DNA from: Nitrospina sp.
GTDB lineage: Bacteria > Nitrospinota > Nitrospinia > Nitrospinales > VA-1
Assembly (NCBI GenBank): GCA_018702695.1
Contig: JABIYR010000134.1
Location: 1-41,323 of the forward strand
Direction: 5' to 3'
DNA length: 41,323 nucleotides
Positions within the stretch are counted from its first letter, which is position 1. Every line of letters begins with the position of its first letter. Under the pieces are notes generated by a model that worked only from the letters and a program-made list of their open reading frames with translations, did not search any database and was not told where the DNA came from. Of this stretch, positions 2,751 through 15,875 are shown piece by piece. The position numbers and the translations under genes were made by a program.

Positions 2751-3137
2751 TTATATATCTTGCCAGATAAGTGCCCAGAAATCTTGCGAGTTCATAGTAC
2801 TGAATAGACCCGAAGTGTAAGTGTCGCTCATCACGACACGCTCTTCAACTCTGTCCTGCTTGGCACTGACAATCTTCACATCCGCATGTTTGGTTTTGGT
2901 AAAACCATTAAAGAGTGAACCTGAAAGAGTGGGTTCTAAATCCAGCGGGAATTTTCGGGCAAGTCTAATGCCCACTCCGTGTAAGTCAACGCATAATATG
3001 CCATTGTCCACCCAGCACTCAATGCTTTGATCTTCTTCTTTGCCAGTCGCAAATATTTTATTTCCTGATCGGATGGCATGAACCGGGCCAGTTGTCCCTT
3101 TGCACCAAATTTTACCTGAATCCTGAATTTCTTGCAT
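2751..3137 (-). CDS. Hypothetical protein (128 aa)
   Basis: Uninterrupted ORF with plausible composition, divergent from bioF; no recognised family. Confidence 0.55.
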   Translation of the reverse strand: MQEIQDSGKIWCKGTTGPVHAIRSGNKIFATGKEEDQSIECWVDNGILCVDLHGVGIRLARKFPLDLEPTLSGSLFNGFTKTKHADVKIVSAKQDRVEERVVMSDTYTSGLFSTMNSQDFWALIWQDI

Positions 3138-3243: not shown

Positions 3244-4401
3244 GTGGGGTTGAATTCGTTGAGTGATCAATTTTTAAACCGTCTAGAAAATGAAATAAAA
3301 ATCCTCCAAGATAAGAACCTTTATCGCGAGGTACGGCTTTACCCCAATAGTCGGCTTAACCTTTGCTCCAACGATTATTTTCAGTTGCGCAAGCACCCAC
3401 AAGTTACTGCGGGCAGTATTAAAGCCTGTGAAGATTATGGGACTGGCAGTGGCGGTTCTCCCCTACTCTCAGGATACCTTCCCTGCCATCAAAGTTTGTT
3501 AGATCAGCTACGTCAATGGAAGCATAAGTCTTACGGAATGTTATTGAACTCTGGTTTCATGGCCAATCAAGCGGTTTTAAAACATCTTCCGGGTAAAAAT
3601 GATCTGATACTGGCTGATAAATTGATCCATAACTCCATTGCCCAAGGCCTCATGCAGGGTCAAGCTCGGTTTAAACGATATCAGCATTTAGATTTAAACC
3701 ATTTGCGCGATTTATTGGAAGCAAATTTCCATTCTTACGAGACCGTTTTTGTGGTGACAGAAAGTATTTTTAGCATGGATGGAGATTATCCAGATTTAAG
3801 GAAACTGGTAGAACTGAAACAGCAATACCCATTTGTTTTGATTCTTGATGAAGCACACGGCACAGGAGTGTTCGGTGCAACCGGAGCGGGTTTGGCTGAA
3901 GAAATGCAAGTGCAAAGTCATGTAGATATTATCATTGGCACATTGGGGAAATCGTTGGCCAGTATGGGGGCTTATATTCTATCTGATTCACCCATCGTCA
4001 TAGATTATCTAATAAATCGAGCTGGTGAATTCATCTACTCAACATTTTTATCACCAGCTCAAGTTGGGGCCGCTGAAAGTGCATTAAAAATATTGCAATC
4101 GGGGCAAGACCAACGACGGGCTCTGCAAAAAATATCGAAGCAATTTAGAGAGATCATGAACTTAGAGGATCAAACAACAAATGAGCACCCCTCCCCAATT
4201 GTCCCCATTGTAATTGGTGACCCGATAAGAACTCTTGAATTGAGGAATTATTTGCTACAAAAAGGTGTTATGGTAGGGGCAATTAGACCGCCTACGGTGC
4301 CTCCACAGACATCAAGACTGAGGGTGTCTTTGCATACAGGAATAACCGAAGAAAACCTCGTGGAGTTGGGAAGCCTAATCAAGCCATGGATAACCTCTTA
4401 A
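3244..4401 (+). CDS. bioF: 8-amino-7-oxononanoate synthase
   Basis: LCSNDYFQLRKHP, GTGSGGSPLLSGY, LILDEAHGTGVFG, GTLGKSLASMGAY (PLP lysine), RLRVSLHTG. Confidence 0.92.
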   Translation: MGLNSLSDQFLNRLENEIKILQDKNLYREVRLYPNSRLNLCSNDYFQLRKHPQVTAGSIKACEDYGTGSGGSPLLSGYLPCHQSLLDQLRQWKHKSYGMLLNSGFMANQAVLKHLPGKNDLILADKLIHNSIAQGLMQGQARFKRYQHLDLNHLRDLLEANFHSYETVFVVTESIFSMDGDYPDLRKLVELKQQYPFVLILDEAHGTGVFGATGAGLAEEMQVQSHVDIIIGTLGKSLASMGAYILSDSPIVIDYLINRAGEFIYSTFLSPAQVGAAESALKILQSGQDQRRALQKISKQFREIMNLEDQTTNEHPSPIVPIVIGDPIRTLELRNYLLQKGVMVGAIRPPTVPPQTSRLRVSLHTGITEENLVELGSLIKPWITS

Positions 4402-5045
4402 CCATCACCGCAATTTCTGGATGGGCTATTCCTCAAAAATGGTTCCAGAAAGAAATTCTTACGGCCTTTCCAGGTTCCAGGATCGAGGTGATTTATCCAG
4501 AAAACCCTGAAAGTAATGAGGAGGCTGAAAAAAATCTACGCCGATATCCGGCGGACCTTTATATCGGCTACTCCCTAGGAAGTTTATGGTTACTCAAATA
4601 TAAAGATCTATTACCAATGACCGCAAAAAAGGCCTTACTAGCCCCTATTTTGTCATTTTTGGATAAAGATGGCTTAGGGGGCACGACTTCTGAAACTCAA
4701 TTGAATTATCTGTCCAGACAAATGAAGCAAAATCCCGACAGTTCTTCCTGCCTTAAACAGTTTTTCTCGTACTCCAAGCTCCCCTACCCAGAAAACCTGA
4801 TTGACGAACTTCCTAGTAGGGATATTTTATTGAAGGGTTTGGATTTTCTGAAAACCTGTCGAGTTAAGGGTGAAGACAGCAAAATATTTTTGTCCATATT
4901 GGGAGAAGATGATATTTTTGTAGATGGGAAGATGCTCCAAACACATATTCCCCATCTAGATATTATTCAAGGTGTTGGACATGCCCCAGGAAAATTGCTC
5001 AATCGTCTGGCATGGCATTTGAAGTGTGGAAAATATAATTCATGA
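4386..5045 (+). CDS. Alpha/beta hydrolase, probable pimeloyl-ACP methyl ester esterase (BioG/BioH-type)
   Basis: GYSLGS nucleophile elbow, later Asp (GEDDIFVDG) and His (GVGHAPG); overlaps bioF and lies in a cluster with bioC. Confidence 0.7.
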   Translation: MDNLLTITAISGWAIPQKWFQKEILTAFPGSRIEVIYPENPESNEEAEKNLRRYPADLYIGYSLGSLWLLKYKDLLPMTAKKALLAPILSFLDKDGLGGTTSETQLNYLSRQMKQNPDSSSCLKQFFSYSKLPYPENLIDELPSRDILLKGLDFLKTCRVKGEDSKIFLSILGEDDIFVDGKMLQTHIPHLDIIQGVGHAPGKLLNRLAWHLKCGKYNS

Positions 5046-7303
5046 AAATATTTGGCATAAATTTTAATCATTCGCCGAGCTCTAAAAATCCGATCACGGT
5101 GGCGATTTGTGACTTTAAAAAAAGTCAGGGTCTGTCTGTGTCCAGGGTTGAACTTTTATGCTCTTTGAAAGAATTTGAAACTTTCTTACAGCAGAAAGGC
5201 CCTTGGTTCGCGGGCGTCAATTTCCCTCTCGGTCAGCCAAGCCAGTTTCTGCAATCCATGAAACTCCCCCAAAAATGGAGCGGTTATATTAAAGACATAA
5301 ACCGCTGGAAACTTGATGGTTACCAAAAGAAAGTTTTAAAATTCAAAAAAAAATTGGCCACTGGTTCGAAGGAACCTCAGCGTATAACAGATACCTTGGC
5401 AGGTTCCGGAAGCCCTTTAACGTTCAATAAAAAACAAACGGCCCATCATTTTTTTGAAGGCACTCATTGTTTGATACGCTCGGGTGCATCCATTCTTCCT
5501 TGTAATATTAAAGTAGATAAACGCGTTGTGCTAGAGACCTACCCTGATCTAGTGGCTAAACGATTTGCCGTCCATGCTATTGGGGCTAAGGCCAAAAACG
5601 TAGACATAGAAAATCTTCACAAAGAAATTATAAAAGGGCTGGAAACACCTGAATTTGAACGAGACTTTAAATTTAAAATATTTTTGGATGACAGCCTCAA
5701 ACTAAAATGTGTCGAAGAATCTAACGGTGCAATATTAAATGCGGTTTTAATTTCAGCTCAAGTTGCATGGGCCTATAGCGAAGGAAAACCCAATTATGGG
5801 ATTCCTGATATTCAGCACCCTAATATCCAGACTGAAGGATGGATCGTTGACCCCAGTCTGGTTAACGATTTAGTTAAACCCAAAAATCGTTTTGGAAGTG
5901 AACTGGCTGAGTTCATCCAAAAAGGTGGGTTGGATACTAAAAGGTCTTTCAACCTAATGGGTCATATTCAAAGGTTATCTAATATAGGGCGAGCGTTGTC
6001 GGGTGAGCGAAACTTGATGGCCTTATTAGAAACCATTGTGAATGAAGCCCGGAGCCTGACTTTGGCCGATGGCGGGACGCTCTATATTCTTAAAGATGAC
6101 TTACTGCATTTTAAAATTGTTCAAAATGAATCTTTGAATATCACTATGGGCGGTGTCACCGGTGTTGAGATCACCTTCCCACCCTTGGAGAATAAAGAGT
6201 CCAATGTTTCTTCCTATGTGGCTATAAAAAACATCTCTGTCAATATTCCCGATGTTTATAACTATAAACCGTTTGATTTCACCGGCCCTAAAAAATTTGA
6301 TGCCAAGACAGGGTATCGAACCAAATCAATGCTTGTGGTTCCACTGACCAATCATGAAGATGAGGTCATAGGAGTTTTGCAACTTTTAAATGCTAGAGAT
6401 GTGAATGACAAAAAAAAGGTGATTCCTTTTTCACCCGATTATGAAAGCCTTGTTGAGTCACTCGCTTCTCAGGCGGCTGTTGCCGTCAGCAATGCTTCCC
6501 TTATTAATGAGTTGAAAACTGCCCATCAAACACTCATTGGAGCTAGAGATAGGGCCGAAGACGCGAGCCGGGCAAAAAGTAATTTCCTCGCCAATATGAG
6601 TCACGAGCTACGCACCCCCATGAATGCGATCATTGGATATAGCGAAATGCTTATAGAAGATGCGGAGGAAGAAGGTCTGGATGAATTTGAAGCCGACTTG
6701 CAAAATATTTGCTCATCAGGAAAACACCTATTGGGCTTAATCAATGAGATTCTAGACCTTTCTAAGATAGAAGCCGGCAAGATGGAAATATTTTTAAAAA
6801 GTTTCGACATCGCTAAACTGGTGAAGGATGTAGAGGAAACTATACATCCAATGGCTGAGAAAAGGTCTAACAAATTATTGATTGATTGCTCAGATAATAT
6901 TGGTTTTATGGAAGCGGATGAAACACGAGTGCGACAAATGCTTCACAATCTTTTAAGCAACGCTTGTAAATTTACCGACAAGGGAACGGTGACCTTAAAA
7001 GTCACGCGTATTACTGTTGAAGGCATAGATTGGGTTCGGTTTGATATCATTGATACAGGCATGGGCATACCCAGTGAATCCATAAAACATTTGTTCCATG
7101 AATTTTCGCAAATCGATAATTCCTCCACCCGCGAATTTGGCGGAACAGGTTTGGGTTTAGCAATCAGTAAAAGATTTTGTCTGATGATGGGTGGCGATAT
7201 AACGGTTGAAAGTGTAATAGGTGAAGGTTCAACCTTTACCATTGAAATGCCAGTTAAAGTCGTGACTAAAGCGAAACTTCGACGCCGAGCCAGTGACCGT
7301 TAA
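5042..7303 (+). CDS. Hybrid protein: N-terminal DUF429-like (RNase H-fold) domain + GAF + HisKA + HATPase_c sensor kinase
   Basis: N-term GVNFPLGQP, VVLETYPDLVAKRF, NAVLISAQVAWAY, PNYGIP, EGWIVDP resemble DUF429. GAF region about 5990-6520. H-box NFLANMSHELRTPMNAIIGYSE, N-box HNLLSNACKFTDKG, G-boxes DTGMGIP and GGTGLGLAIS. Confidence 0.85.
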   Translation: MKIFGINFNHSPSSKNPITVAICDFKKSQGLSVSRVELLCSLKEFETFLQQKGPWFAGVNFPLGQPSQFLQSMKLPQKWSGYIKDINRWKLDGYQKKVLKFKKKLATGSKEPQRITDTLAGSGSPLTFNKKQTAHHFFEGTHCLIRSGASILPCNIKVDKRVVLETYPDLVAKRFAVHAIGAKAKNVDIENLHKEIIKGLETPEFERDFKFKIFLDDSLKLKCVEESNGAILNAVLISAQVAWAYSEGKPNYGIPDIQHPNIQTEGWIVDPSLVNDLVKPKNRFGSELAEFIQKGGLDTKRSFNLMGHIQRLSNIGRALSGERNLMALLETIVNEARSLTLADGGTLYILKDDLLHFKIVQNESLNITMGGVTGVEITFPPLENKESNVSSYVAIKNISVNIPDVYNYKPFDFTGPKKFDAKTGYRTKSMLVVPLTNHEDEVIGVLQLLNARDVNDKKKVIPFSPDYESLVESLASQAAVAVSNASLINELKTAHQTLIGARDRAEDASRAKSNFLANMSHELRTPMNAIIGYSEMLIEDAEEEGLDEFEADLQNICSSGKHLLGLINEILDLSKIEAGKMEIFLKSFDIAKLVKDVEETIHPMAEKRSNKLLIDCSDNIGFMEADETRVRQMLHNLLSNACKFTDKGTVTLKVTRITVEGIDWVRFDIIDTGMGIPSESIKHLFHEFSQIDNSSTREFGGTGLGLAISKRFCLMMGGDITVESVIGEGSTFTIEMPVKVVTKAKLRRRASDR

Positions 7304-7350: not shown

Positions 7351-8118
7351 TTGAGCCTCAATGATCACCCCTTGGTAAATGATGACAGCCTAATAAATAG
7401 TTTTTCTAAATACGCCAAAAGTTATGATCGTTATGCACAACTGCAAAAATCTATGGCAAAAAGACTTGCGGCATTCCTTCCCAATCCATTACCGAGCCAT
7501 ATTCTAGAAATCGGTTGTGGTACAGGGCTTTTCACACGACATTTGTTAACTCAAGCCCTTGGACAACTTACACTGAATGACATTGCGCCCGGAATGCTTG
7601 AGATATTACAGCGTTCATTGGAGTTACCAAAAAACACAATAATCGCATCGGGAAATGCTGAACGAATCCAATTTGAAAAGGTAGACCTTATTTGTGCTAA
7701 TGCTGTTTTTCAATGGTTTCAAACGCCTCAGGAAACATTAAAAATGTTGAACCAGTCTTTAAGAGAGAGGGGCCAAATGATTTTCAGTACTTTTGGCCCC
7801 AAAACATTAATTGAATTTCGTGAAGCGGCTGATTTAACCAACCCTATTGAGCTTTATAAAAATACGACTTGGAAAAAAATGATACAAGATTCGGGTTTTA
7901 GAATAAAGTCTAGCGACGTGGAAGTTCGAAAAATATTTTTTTCCAATGCTCTGACTTTATTAAAAAACTTACAACAAATTGGTGCGGCCCCAGTTCGCAT
8001 GGCTAAAACAGGTGGGCTTAGAAAATTAATACGCGACTATGATTCGAAATTCTCAACCTCTCAAGGTGTGTATGCAACTTGGGAATTGTATTATTATTCC
8101 ATCATCAATGAAAATTGA
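7351..8118 (+). CDS. bioC: Malonyl-ACP O-methyltransferase
   Basis: SAM motif ILEIGCGTGLFTRHL, LICANAVFQWF, FSTFGPKTLIEFREA; bioF context. Confidence 0.85.
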   Translation: MSLNDHPLVNDDSLINSFSKYAKSYDRYAQLQKSMAKRLAAFLPNPLPSHILEIGCGTGLFTRHLLTQALGQLTLNDIAPGMLEILQRSLELPKNTIIASGNAERIQFEKVDLICANAVFQWFQTPQETLKMLNQSLRERGQMIFSTFGPKTLIEFREAADLTNPIELYKNTTWKKMIQDSGFRIKSSDVEVRKIFFSNALTLLKNLQQIGAAPVRMAKTGGLRKLIRDYDSKFSTSQGVYATWELYYYSIINEN

Positions 8119-8188: not shown

Positions 8189-10060
8189 ATGAGTGACTCC
8201 CTCGCAAATAAAAACCTAACATTATTGAAGCGACTCCATCCGTCGCTTTATACAATAATTGCACCTGCAAAAGTTTCCCTTTCTTATGAACCCATAATCT
8301 CTAAATCTGGAGCTTTATCTCTCAGTCACCGTGACTCAATGGGAGTGAAAAAACAGGTTTATAGTCTCTATGACCCAATCGCAGAGGCTTCTCGTCACCT
8401 AGAATCATTAGAAATTGAAAAATTCACCAACTTTATTGTTTTAGGTTTCGGTTTGGGGCATCAGGTTACGGAGTTAATCAAGAAAACATCCAGCCGTTCA
8501 AATATTTATATCTTCGAAAAAGATCCTGAACTTATAGCTTTAGCAATTCGTGAAATCGATTTGTCCAATATATTAAATCATTCTAGGGTCAAACTTTTTG
8601 TAGATGTTAAAACCCATTCGCTGGTTTCTTTGTTGGAAACCATTCAAACAGATTTCAGCCTAAATGAATATCGCGTCATTTCGCAAAAATCTTTGGTTGA
8701 TTTCAACCGTGAATATTATGGAAGTTTAAAGACCGAAATAGAGGCAATTTTTAAGAAGTCAGAAATCAATTTAAAAACCCAAGTGATCCACTCTAAGCAG
8801 TATTGCAAAAATATTTTTTCAAACCTCACCCGTTTTTTGGACAGTCCTGGCATTATTCAATTAAAAGAGGGATTGCCTGATATTCCGGTTGTCATATGTT
8901 CGGCCGGGCCTTCACTGGATAAGAATATTCAACTGCTTAAATCTTCACGAAACAAATTCTTTTTAGCCGCTGTCGGAACTGCTTTGAAACCACTTCTCCG
9001 TAATGGAATTAGACCGGATGTGGTTTTTTCGATAGATCCCGATGCTCTAACCATCAATTGTTTCGACCTTTCCAAAGACATCGATGACTATTGGCTGATA
9101 TTCAACAGTTCAGTTCCTGAATTAATTCCACAACTATTCCCTAAATGTAGATTGGCATTTGATTCCGAATACTATTTGGCCAAATGGTTTAAAAAATATT
9201 CTGAAGATAAAGGAGGTTTAGGAGACATTTTTTCCGTTGCTCATGCGGCGGTTCGATTTGCTCAATTTTTGGCTTGTTCACCGATCATTACTATAGGACA
9301 AGACTTATCTTTTAATCGCCAACAATTACATGCGCGTAATACTTTTTATTGTGACGGACTTATGGATAAGGTGTGTAAGTTAAAACCTTATTCCTATTGG
9401 GAAGATAAAAAGTTTAAAGTTTTTGGCGAAAACTTATCACCATCTCAGAATCTCTATGGGGTGAATACGGTCAGTACTCATGCGATGGAAAGTTATAATG
9501 ATATGTTCGCAAAAAGTTTTAATAACTCTCAATCAGTTATCAATGCCACCGAAGGGGGAGTACCCATTAAAGGGGTGCAAAACTTAACTTTGCGAGAAGC
9601 TATTTATAGTTACTGCCATGAACCGGTTACGCAACAGATAGATTCATTATTTGAGAGGGTTGAGCAAAAAAAAGAATGTTTTCAATCCTTAGATTTAGCG
9701 ACATCGGAGCAAGTTAATCAATTGCAGGATATTGCGGCAACACTCAATATTCTTAAAGATAAATACTTAGAGCCTGGGAAAACGACTTCACAAGAAAAGC
9801 ACGCTTTCATCGATGAGATGAGAAACCTGTATCAAATTATTTTAACTAATAGTGAAACGGCTCTGATCATTCAAGGCTATGAATTTGCTGGGTTTTCTAA
9901 TTGGTATCGTTCTAATAATAAAATATTAGGTGATAAAGAACGTTCGCTGGATAGTGATTTGCTCGAAGAGGAGTTTAAACGTGATCATGATTTTCTTGTT
10001 TTATTGATAGACGCAGTGGATGAGCTAATGATTAGGTTTAAGGAAATCATACCTGCATGA
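8189..10060 (+). CDS. Maf/DUF115 family protein (motility accessory factor-like, putative flagellin glycosyltransferase)
   Basis: VVICSAGPSLDKNIQLL, RNGIRPDVVFSIDPD, GQDLSF, and the overall 620-aa layout match DUF115 proteins. Confidence 0.8.
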   Translation: MSDSLANKNLTLLKRLHPSLYTIIAPAKVSLSYEPIISKSGALSLSHRDSMGVKKQVYSLYDPIAEASRHLESLEIEKFTNFIVLGFGLGHQVTELIKKTSSRSNIYIFEKDPELIALAIREIDLSNILNHSRVKLFVDVKTHSLVSLLETIQTDFSLNEYRVISQKSLVDFNREYYGSLKTEIEAIFKKSEINLKTQVIHSKQYCKNIFSNLTRFLDSPGIIQLKEGLPDIPVVICSAGPSLDKNIQLLKSSRNKFFLAAVGTALKPLLRNGIRPDVVFSIDPDALTINCFDLSKDIDDYWLIFNSSVPELIPQLFPKCRLAFDSEYYLAKWFKKYSEDKGGLGDIFSVAHAAVRFAQFLACSPIITIGQDLSFNRQQLHARNTFYCDGLMDKVCKLKPYSYWEDKKFKVFGENLSPSQNLYGVNTVSTHAMESYNDMFAKSFNNSQSVINATEGGVPIKGVQNLTLREAIYSYCHEPVTQQIDSLFERVEQKKECFQSLDLATSEQVNQLQDIAATLNILKDKYLEPGKTTSQEKHAFIDEMRNLYQIILTNSETALIIQGYEFAGFSNWYRSNNKILGDKERSLDSDLLEEEFKRDHDFLVLLIDAVDELMIRFKEIIPA

Positions 10061-13313: not shown

Positions 13314-15875
13314 TTATAGACCACTGTCCTTAATTTCGTCCCCTACTCGTTTAAGCATCCATTCTTTTATTTCTTCACCCAGTACCTTGAAGTCATTGTT
13401 CAGAGGTTGTGCAGAACAGATATGGCTCGCTAACTCGGCATTGCCCAGAGCATCGGTAAAATCTCCAGACTGCTGACAAGTTATTGATAGATTCCATAAA
13501 GCTTTTGCCTCGAGGTAGCGGTCTATATGTTTTTTCCCCAACGATCGGGCATGCCTAAAGCATATTTGAGATTTTTCAAACCGATCGATTTCTAAATAAG
13601 TATTGCCAAGACTTTCCAGTAATGAATACTCTATGGCATAAGTTGAAAACTTTCTAATTTTAGGCAAGCCACGTTCATAATACTCAATGGCTTTAGTAAA
13701 TTCCTTTAGATTATAATAATAATCACCCATCTTCTTAAGGATGATGCCCTGCCCTCTATTGTCACCCATTTTTTTTGCTAAATCTAAAGACGAATCCAAA
13801 CACTCAAGGGCTTTTTTATGTTTCCCCGTTTGCAGGTAACACACGGACAAGTTTTCCAGCGCTCCCATTTCTAATACCTTGAGATTTCCTTGACTGGCAA
13901 GAGTCTTAGCTTCTTTTAAATAGGTTATGGCAGATTGAAACTTTTTAACCGTGTTGCATAATATACCTAGGTCACTCAATAGTTGAGCCTGAAACTTTTT
14001 ATTGCTGGTGTTACGCGCCTTTTCTAAAGCCAGTTTATAGTATTGCTCGGAGTGTTCATAATCTTTCGCTTTGAAACACGCTTGCGCCAGTGAATCCAGC
14101 ATTTCCATTTCCTTATTGGCTTTTCCCTCTAATCGTACATACTCAAGAGCCTTAGTGAAACACTCTATAGCTCTTTCATAGTTGCCAACACTGAAACAAC
14201 ACTGACCTAATAAATCGAGTGCTTGCTTTTCATCTGAAACATGACCTAATTTGCGAGACAGGGTCTGAGCCTCTTCGAGATAGTCAATGGCTTTATCATA
14301 ATGGGCCATTGAATGCAGTTGAATTCCAAGAGATAAGAGGTTGTTTTTTTCCGCCTCCACATTTTCCGACTCTCTGGAAGCAGTGAGAGCCGACTCACTC
14401 CACTCGATGCATTCATCGGTTGAATGCCTCATCGGAATTAAAGCCCGGGCCTCTTTGCAATAATCGCCACAGAGTTTAGCAATTTTTGCATCCTCTTCAC
14501 TTTTTTGGGAGGACCATTTTTGACCGGCTTTAATATTAAACCAATCTTGATCGAATATATTCAGCGCGCTTTCTAAAGCGTCCTCATCATTTTCATACAA
14601 CTCATTGGCATTTTGAAGAATATCGAAATAATAAAAAGCCAGAGTTCGATAGGTGAGAATTCTTTCAGAAGGTCTGACTTCCGCTTTAACCAGTTGATGC
14701 AATAACTCGTGGAAATAATATCTATTGTTCACACTATCATGTTCGATGAACTTGAGTGAGACCAAGCGTTTAAGATGATCACAATCTCTGTCCCCGCATA
14801 CCGCGATAACCGCTTTCTCGTCAAAGGAACTGGAAAACAAAGCTAGTTTACGCAATACCGTTGCGGTTTCCTTTCGCATATCCCTGAAAATCACATTAAA
14901 AATAGGTTCTATATTCCTGTCAAGGATTTCCTTTTTGTTAGCATTTCCATCTAATTCCTCATCACCGCCCGACTTCAAAACGCGCTTTTCTTCACGTAGT
15001 TCCTTAACCAATGTGTCAACAGCTAGGTCCGGGTTAGATTGCAAATAAGAGCCAGCCAATGCAATGGCCATGGGGGAGTAGCCACATAGTTCATTAATTT
15101 CCGTAGCCCAGCGTTTTGCGTGCCCGGCGTAGAAAAAAAGCAACAGTTCTGCTTCATCGGGAAACAGTTCTTTCACCGGTTTGGCATAGGAACCGGGTAA
15201 TGATACTTTTTCCCTACTTGTAAATAGAATCAATACCGATTTGCCGACCAACAGTCGTTTTATTTGGCTGGCTTTGCTTGCATTATCAACCAGCATTAAT
15301 ACACGTTTGCCTTTTAATGCCGACACATATTCTTGCGCTAGTTTAGCCGGATCATTAGGAAGTGATTCTTTCGGAAAGAAAGCTCGCAAAACATGACCCA
15401 TTGCATGATTGACCGATAGAGGTCTATCTCCTCCACCGTTAAAATCAAAATAAAATTGCGCATCCGGGTATTTAGGTTTCAATTGATGAGCTAATTCTAA
15501 TGCCAAGGCAGTTTTACCATTTCCTCTATCACCATACAGACAGATAGGGCCACCTGTGTCCCAGCTTCTACCCATTACTTCCAGTAAAACATCTTTCCTA
15601 CCAAAAAAAGCGTTCAGCTTAGCGGGAAGTTGGTTTTTTGATAACGCTGGAAAACTTCTGGCATTTATCATGGATAGCTGGTTGAGCAAACTATTACCGG
15701 AACCAACTGATGCAGAGGAGGGAGAGGCACTAGAATTCGTAGTAAAACTTACTTCATTTTCAATGTTCGGATTATTGTTTGAGTCCAATTTGTCATTGTC
15801 TTGAGGTTTCCTTAGGATCAATACAAACCCTAAAACGACCACCAACAAAATTATAATGACTAAAGATAAATCCAT
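13314..15875 (-). CDS. Membrane-anchored STAND ATPase: N-terminal TM helix, NB-ARC-like P-loop NTPase, C-terminal TPR array
   Basis: N-term MDLSLVIIILLVVVLGFVLIL; Walker A YGDRGNGKTALA; Walker B KRVLMLVDNAS; GYSPMAIALAGSYL; many 36-40 aa TPR-like units. Confidence 0.82.
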   Translation of the reverse strand: MDLSLVIIILLVVVLGFVLILRKPQDNDKLDSNNNPNIENEVSFTTNSSASPSSASVGSGNSLLNQLSMINARSFPALSKNQLPAKLNAFFGRKDVLLEVMGRSWDTGGPICLYGDRGNGKTALALELAHQLKPKYPDAQFYFDFNGGGDRPLSVNHAMGHVLRAFFPKESLPNDPAKLAQEYVSALKGKRVLMLVDNASKASQIKRLLVGKSVLILFTSREKVSLPGSYAKPVKELFPDEAELLLFFYAGHAKRWATEINELCGYSPMAIALAGSYLQSNPDLAVDTLVKELREEKRVLKSGGDEELDGNANKKEILDRNIEPIFNVIFRDMRKETATVLRKLALFSSSFDEKAVIAVCGDRDCDHLKRLVSLKFIEHDSVNNRYYFHELLHQLVKAEVRPSERILTYRTLAFYYFDILQNANELYENDEDALESALNIFDQDWFNIKAGQKWSSQKSEEDAKIAKLCGDYCKEARALIPMRHSTDECIEWSESALTASRESENVEAEKNNLLSLGIQLHSMAHYDKAIDYLEEAQTLSRKLGHVSDEKQALDLLGQCCFSVGNYERAIECFTKALEYVRLEGKANKEMEMLDSLAQACFKAKDYEHSEQYYKLALEKARNTSNKKFQAQLLSDLGILCNTVKKFQSAITYLKEAKTLASQGNLKVLEMGALENLSVCYLQTGKHKKALECLDSSLDLAKKMGDNRGQGIILKKMGDYYYNLKEFTKAIEYYERGLPKIRKFSTYAIEYSLLESLGNTYLEIDRFEKSQICFRHARSLGKKHIDRYLEAKALWNLSITCQQSGDFTDALGNAELASHICSAQPLNNDFKVLGEEIKEWMLKRVGDEIKDSGL

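Follow-up and report, generated by a model that had tools for sequence, protein, structure and literature searches.

The window analyzed here (the whole stretch of 41,323 nucleotides, one contig of a MAG related to Nitrospinaceae) encodes a sensor histidine kinase whose N-terminal DUF429 domain has kept an RNase H/RuvC-like fold and lost all four acidic residues predicted to bind metal. This loss arose once, in one clade and stepwise, and the domain has stayed under purifying selection; it is now probably a sensing or regulatory part of the kinase.

Kinase gene and its biotin-gene neighborhood

In silico analysis of the kinase gene distinguished the following features:

5042..7303, + strand: sensor histidine kinase gene, 753 aa, DUF429-GAF-HisKA-HATPase (ORF and Pfam)
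5042..5869, + strand: N-terminal DUF429 domain, residues 1-276, RuvC-like RNase H fold, predicted to be catalytically degenerate (homology and model)
5867..6007, + strand: DUF429-GAF linker, residues 276-322, nearly frozen in the degenerate clade and variable in other clades
6014..6487, + strand: GAF domain, residues 325-482 (Pfam)
6572..6778, + strand: HisKA domain, residues 511-579, with an intact SHELRTP box and phospho-acceptor H521 (Pfam)
6917..7258, + strand: HATPase_c domain, residues 626-739, with intact N, G1, F and G2 boxes (Pfam)

The ORF, its coordinates and the motifs FGIN (N7), GVNFPLGQP (N60), ETYPDL, ILNAV (N233) and EGWIVDP, all listed in an earlier note on this DNA, are borne out by the sequence, and Pfam confirmed that the N-terminal domain is joined to a GAF-HisKA-HATPase module, as had been claimed. 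With HisKA, HATPase_c and complete boxes the protein is a HisKA-type sensor histidine kinase. No defect was seen in the H, N, G1, F and G2 boxes, either of the window kinase or of those orthologs that extend far enough, which rules out a kinase-dead protein. It has no apparent membrane part, and no response regulator was recognized among the annotated neighbors of its gene. All kinase boxes and the GAF input are shared with cytoplasmic GAF-HisKA-HATPase kinases, to which the window protein adds an N-terminal RNase H-fold domain.

The gene lies within a cluster of biotin genes, with three conserved neighbors:

3244..4401, + strand: bioF (8-amino-7-oxononanoate synthase-like), conserved upstream neighbor
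4386..5045, + strand: BioG/BioH-like alpha/beta hydrolase, conserved direct upstream neighbor (role suggested by its triad and context)
7351..8118, + strand: bioC-like malonyl-ACP methyltransferase, conserved downstream neighbor

Apart from small rearrangements, the taxonomic order as a whole shares the arrangement pabB-pabC-LclC-orf128(-)-bioF-bioG-like-HK-bioC. The bioG-like product has conserved GYSLG, D176 and H199, gives weak alpha/beta-hydrolase matches (the window copy has no Pfam match) and shares 37-65% identity among aligned orthologs; it is possibly an unrecognized type of pimeloyl-ester esterase. Judging from the gene arrangement, the kinase is probably co-expressed with biotin synthesis, since its start codon overlaps the stop codon of the upstream biotin gene (ATGA at 5042-5045). 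In genomes devoid of the kinase the biotin genes stay adjacent, so biotin synthesis as such does not depend on the kinase. A literature search for biotin operons containing a histidine kinase found nothing fitting.

This placement underlies a reading that we consider quite improbable, according to which the domain was never a nuclease and holds a small-molecule site, the kinase reporting biotin precursors or a ligand of BioG/BioC. The order-wide position between the bioG-like gene and bioC, the 4-base gene overlap and the continued adjacency of the biotin genes upon kinase loss are in its favor, but the same losses leave the biotin genes undisturbed, and the gene order may be mere inheritance. 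Moreover, among the 108 neighbors of 30 stand-alone DUF429 homologs no family, biotin or other, occurred more than three times; the genomic context of the stand-alone proteins therefore gives no function, and the lack of a recurrent neighbor family counts against a biotin link. The spacing of the acids in the domain (strand 1, strand 4, helix i/i+3) instead agrees with that of RuvC-type nucleases, and the DUF429 domain of the protein RelZ is reported to cut RNA-DNA hybrids.

Three other ORFs of this region were recorded: (i) a 128-aa ORF (2751-3137, - strand) that has no Pfam match and is oriented against the bio/pab cluster in which it lies, its place being conserved across the order at 37-68% identity; (ii) a gene for an MptE-like/Maf-type protein (8189-10060, + strand) directly 3' of bioC, found in the same place, at lower identity, in many relatives; and (iii) a gene for an 853-aa protein (13314-15875, - strand) that combines an ATPase-like N-terminal region (GDRGNGKTAL) with a long TPR array and resembles STAND-type regulators.

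Fold and active-site residues of the DUF429 domain

The window domain alone matches nothing: residues 1-299 had no Pfam match, PF04250 gave no match to the domain at E<=10, and searches against Pfam, NCBIfam and, with phmmer, PDB returned no family match; a profile of its clade likewise had no match among PDB sequences. The family was therefore assigned through orthologs. Of the 26 aligned domains (window and orthologs, scanned singly), 16 matched PF04250 (DUF429), with a best value of 9.1e-13. Three fusions that retain the Asp residues (D-type; L013, L014 and L018) and three stand-alone homologs (L053, L059 and L064) scored above the PF04250 curated cut-off, and the D-type fusions and stand-alone proteins cover the model up to positions 1-204 of 214. 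The window domain shares 32-46% identity with the D-type fusions. On sequence grounds it appears to be a DUF429 homolog that has drifted below Pfam detection and, by its active site, not a canonical member of the family.

The AlphaFold model of the domain (61 sequences; pLDDT 93) has the RNase H strand/helix order, with strands at residues 2-7, 18-26, 30-39, 55-59 and 161-165 and a C-terminal helix at 230-247. This agrees with the published placement of DUF429 in the resolvase clade of the RNase H superfamily (PMC3985635). The four best Foldseek matches in PDB were Ydc2 and Thermus thermophilus RuvC, with weak E-values, none below 0.001 (4ld0, T. thermophilus RuvC: probability 0.96, TM 0.55 by target); a D-type homolog matched RuvC and phage terminase nucleases, again with weak E-values. 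When the DUF429 profile was compared by hhalign with RuvC from these genomes, the result was Probab 0.15 (percent scale) and E 0.4, a weak test given the narrow RuvC alignment. The RuvC/Ydc2 resolvases are thus the nearest solved folds and have the same kind of acid places (strand 1, strand 4, helix i/i+3), but profile similarity to them is not detectable, the DUF429 domain has large extra helical parts, and the window has lost the acids. Together, the PF04250 matches of the orthologs, the AlphaFold model and the Foldseek results uphold the original identification of the N-terminus as DUF429 with an RNase H/RuvC-like fold.

The residues of the predicted active site were compared in an alignment of 79 sequences, comprising 53 stand-alone and 26 fused homologs (16 D-type and 10 degenerate fusions). 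Six codons of the window are of importance:

5060..5062, + strand: N7 (AAT), end of strand 1; Asp in 52/53 stand-alone homologs (alignment, model)
5219..5221, + strand: N60 (AAT), just after strand 4; Asp in 53/53 (alignment, model)
5729..5731, + strand: A230 (GCA), start of the C-terminal helix; Asp in approximately 98% (alignment, model)
5738..5740, + strand: N233 (AAT), C-terminal helix, i+3 from 230; Asp in 52/53 (alignment, model)
5390..5392, + strand: D117, invariant acid kept (RxTD; alignment)
5534..5536, + strand: E165, invariant acid kept (ExYP), end of strand 5 (alignment, model)

Columns 7, 60 and 233 are also all Asp in 16/16 D-type fusions, and D230 sits in the GDxLDA motif of the homologs. 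The window reads N/N/A/N at positions 7/60/230/233. It lacks the acids of strand 1 and strand 4 that form the potential DUF429 active site (PMC3985635), having N7 and N60 there, as well as the two acids, spaced by three residues, with which the C-terminal helix of RuvC-type nucleases begins (A230 and N233 in the window). By topology, not by measured distances, these four positions would correspond to the RuvC-like catalytic places. In RuvC from these genomes the motifs are GIDPGS, VEDLF and DASDA, residues whose catalytic role is established for the RuvC family.

These data place N7, N60 and N233 at acidic positions, as the earlier note had proposed. The uniform Asp-to-Asn change inferred there holds for the three sites and fails at the fourth, position 230, which had been overlooked and is Ala; the statement that all acidic residues are lost was wrong in detail, as D117 and E165 are invariant in 79/79 sequences, the window included. 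D-type DUF429 proteins (53 stand-alone homologs and 16 D-type fusions) do not commonly have Asn at these sites. None of the three contrary outcomes named beforehand—misaligned Asn residues, Asn common in the active family, an N-terminus other than DUF429—occurred.

The changes extend beyond the four acids. At the 43 columns conserved in the stand-alone homologs, D-type fusions show 0-6 deviations vs. 12-16 in the window clade. The clade has lost D7, S10, M136, Y177, K178, R193 and D230, and usually also T9, D60 and D233, while F8, P12, W55, P62, P66, W79, R114, D117, E165, P168 and EGWI are kept. The pattern suggests that one functional site was lost and the fold retained. Compared with the DUF429 family (PF04250; COG2410, COG4328 and COG4923; RNase H-like clade D, PMC3985635), the window domain is homologous over nearly the full model and has the same fold; D-type relatives retain the predicted acids, whereas the window is without those of strand 1, strand 4 and the C-terminal helix and has no Pfam score. 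An assembly error or a special code behind the Asn residues was ruled out, as independent MAGs share them with varied codons (AAT/AAC). Outside Nitrospinota, an independent D7N change was noted in a 490-aa DUF429 protein with an extra C-terminal part, encoded in a Silicimonas MAG (L101, 4192-5661).

Some of the replacements are histidines: R193 has become His in 10/10 clade members and K178 in 8/10, and the window additionally has H10 and H136 in place of an invariant Ser and Met, respectively. Together with the invariance of D117 and E165, this might point to a changed chemistry, i.e., a domain that is still an enzyme or metal site, with a center rebuilt from D117, E165, R114 and the newly fixed histidines. 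We regard such a center as very improbable, because H10 and H136 vary within the clade and two-metal catalysis normally ends once all four RuvC-type ligands are lost.

Distribution, order of loss and constraint

Kinase orthologs were found in 33 of 77 genomes of the phylum (remnants counted), all within one order. Samples of Chloroflexota and Nitrospirota gave only stand-alone copies and no DUF429-kinase fusion; the scan of bacterial and archaeal genomes comprised the best 80 loci, so rare fusions elsewhere could escape it. The stand-alone subfamily (53 proteins analyzed, mostly 268-306 aa) occurs in Chloroflexota, Cyanobacteria, Gammaproteobacteria, Methanoperedens and others, and its distribution is patchy (5/150 and 2/148 genomes in two groups). 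No stand-alone copies were found in phages, and among plasmids they were found only in those of Sinorhizobium. Three DUF429 proteins (L057, L058 and L061; 361-368 aa) have approximately 90 additional C-terminal residues.

In a tree built from the GAF-kinase part only (after residue 285, with DUF429 excluded), the degenerate sequences form one clade with support of 100/100, and every sequence outside it has the Asp residues. Chance is thereby excluded as an explanation of the Asn pattern. The sister genus (g6) reads N/N/(F,Y,H)/D at positions 7/60/230/233, while the genus of the window is mostly N/N/A/N, with N/D/A/N in L004 and L006 and N/N/A/T in L002. The closest sequences accordingly differ among themselves, with D60 in L004 and L006, Thr233 in L002 and D233 in g6. 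In the simplest order of events, positions 7, 60 and 230 changed before 233, and D60 was either regained or lost twice around L004/L006.

The gene itself has been lost repeatedly. Within the window's genus, kinase remnants lie between the bioG-like gene and bioC in two genomes, corresponding to residues 1-94 and 710-753 in G002 (L138, 1574-1974) and to residues 253-328 in G012 (L139, 1595-1822). The kinase is cleanly absent from G005 and G010 of the same genus and, outside it, from G042, G021 and G022; G042 lost it although other members of its genus keep the intact form. A frameshift (G015) and an in-frame stop (G020) were also found. Repeated loss, also within the same genus, indicates that the kinase system is dispensable.

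These losses raise the alternative of relaxed constraint, in which a jobless DUF429 domain is decaying, the Asp-to-Asn changes are steps toward loss of the whole gene, and only the GAF domain and kinase matter. The remnants and complete losses in the window's genus, the frameshift and the stop fit it, as does the evolution of the DUF429 part approximately twice as fast as the kinase. However, the ratio of DUF429 to kinase dN (1.96 and 2.12 in the degenerate genera) is not above that of clades with an intact site (1.11-2.22), the clean losses occurred outside the genus too, including one in a genus otherwise of intact form, and the structural residues, D117, E165 and EGWI are retained in 10/10 clade members. 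For clade pairs with usable dS, the dN/dS of the DUF429 part was approximately 0.07-0.11 (example: dN 0.049, dS 0.69).

The linker has likewise not decayed. Its residues 276-300 have a mean identity of 82% in the degenerate clade vs. 17-27% in the intact clades, residues 301-322 are identical throughout the degenerate clade, and the conserved stretch reads AEFIQKGG/RSFNLMGHIQRLSNIGRALSGE. Over the 47 codons of residues 276-322, pairs of degenerate sequences differ synonymously at 13-29 and in amino acid at 0-7, as against 10-24 amino-acid-changing codons in comparable D-type pairs (none in the very close pair L014/L019). The linker thus gained stronger protein-level constraint in the clade where the acids were lost. 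With a dN/dS of about 0.1 and a linker 82% identical, the DUF429 domain is not simply decaying: the gene is dispensable, yet constrained where kept. We therefore judge relaxed constraint to be unlikely, and the earlier proposal that the domain was retained for a non-cutting role gains support from purifying selection and the newly constrained linker.

Proposed role of the degenerate domain

We favor, as a reasonably probable explanation, a pseudonuclease of the DUF429 family that now serves a soluble kinase as its regulatory input. The closest functional parallel is RelZ (MS_RHII-RSD) of Mycobacterium smegmatis, which combines DUF429 with a (p)ppGpp synthetase. RNase HII activity has been reported for it, its DUF429 domain is reported to cleave RNA-DNA hybrids and R-loops, and its synthetase is inhibited by single-stranded RNA (PMC7591505, PMC4429107). 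Both proteins carry DUF429 N-terminal to a signaling enzyme on one chain, with regulation by RNA reported for RelZ. They differ in that RelZ has a (p)ppGpp synthetase as its output and a DUF429 domain reported to be active, whereas the C-terminus of the window protein is GAF-HisKA-HATPase, with no RelA/SpoT domain. By analogy with RelZ and the DUF429 family, the D-type relatives are presumably nucleases.

The evolutionary course was probably as follows. DUF429 became fused long ago, and as far as seen once, to a soluble GAF-HisKA-HATPase kinase in the order that holds the Nitrospinaceae, most of which has retained all the carboxylates predicted to bind metal (D7, D60, D230 and D233). By analogy with RelZ, the ancestral Nitrospinaceae kinases may have coupled binding or cutting of nucleic acid or nucleotides to phosphorylation. 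In the window clade the four acids have been lost stepwise, together with further polar residues of the presumed active site that are invariant elsewhere; as all four and further site residues are gone, cleavage of the RuvC type should be lost. Purifying selection has meanwhile preserved the fold together with D117/E165, R114 and EGWI, and the GAF linker is now nearly invariant. The degenerate domain may now bind a ligand—the ancestry of the domain and RelZ make nucleic acid or a nucleotide the first guess—or a partner protein, and the binding signal would pass via the now-fixed linker to the GAF-kinase core, which would phosphorylate a putative response regulator. More tentatively, and with distinctly less confidence than in regulatory reuse as such, we suggest a non-cutting RNase H/RuvC-fold receptor for nucleic acid or nucleotides that gates the histidine kinase, its conversion being recorded in an ortholog series that runs from four acids to none. 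Against the pseudonuclease explanation count the dispensability of the gene, the weak Foldseek E-values and the lack of profile similarity to RuvC; the GAF domain may also be the real sensor, with DUF429 only an accessory.

DUF429, GAF and histidine kinases are individually already known. The DUF429 combinations described in PMC3985635 are single-domain proteins and fusions with NUDIX or RelA/SpoT, a histidine-kinase fusion not being among them, and the literature searched describes neither the DUF429-GAF-kinase fusion nor its order-wide place in a biotin cluster nor the stepwise disappearance of its acids.

DUF429 is widespread and nearly unstudied, and its fusions to signaling enzymes hint at a cell-state signal as the ligand. 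Within one order of abundant ocean nitrite oxidizers the same kinase occurs with an intact, a half-lost and a fully lost site at one conserved locus; this ortholog series is a natural experiment on the turning of an enzyme domain into a regulator, and the kinase offers a measurable output for finding the DUF429 ligand. It would also give access to regulation linked to a biotin operon in a group of bacteria of which few members are cultured.
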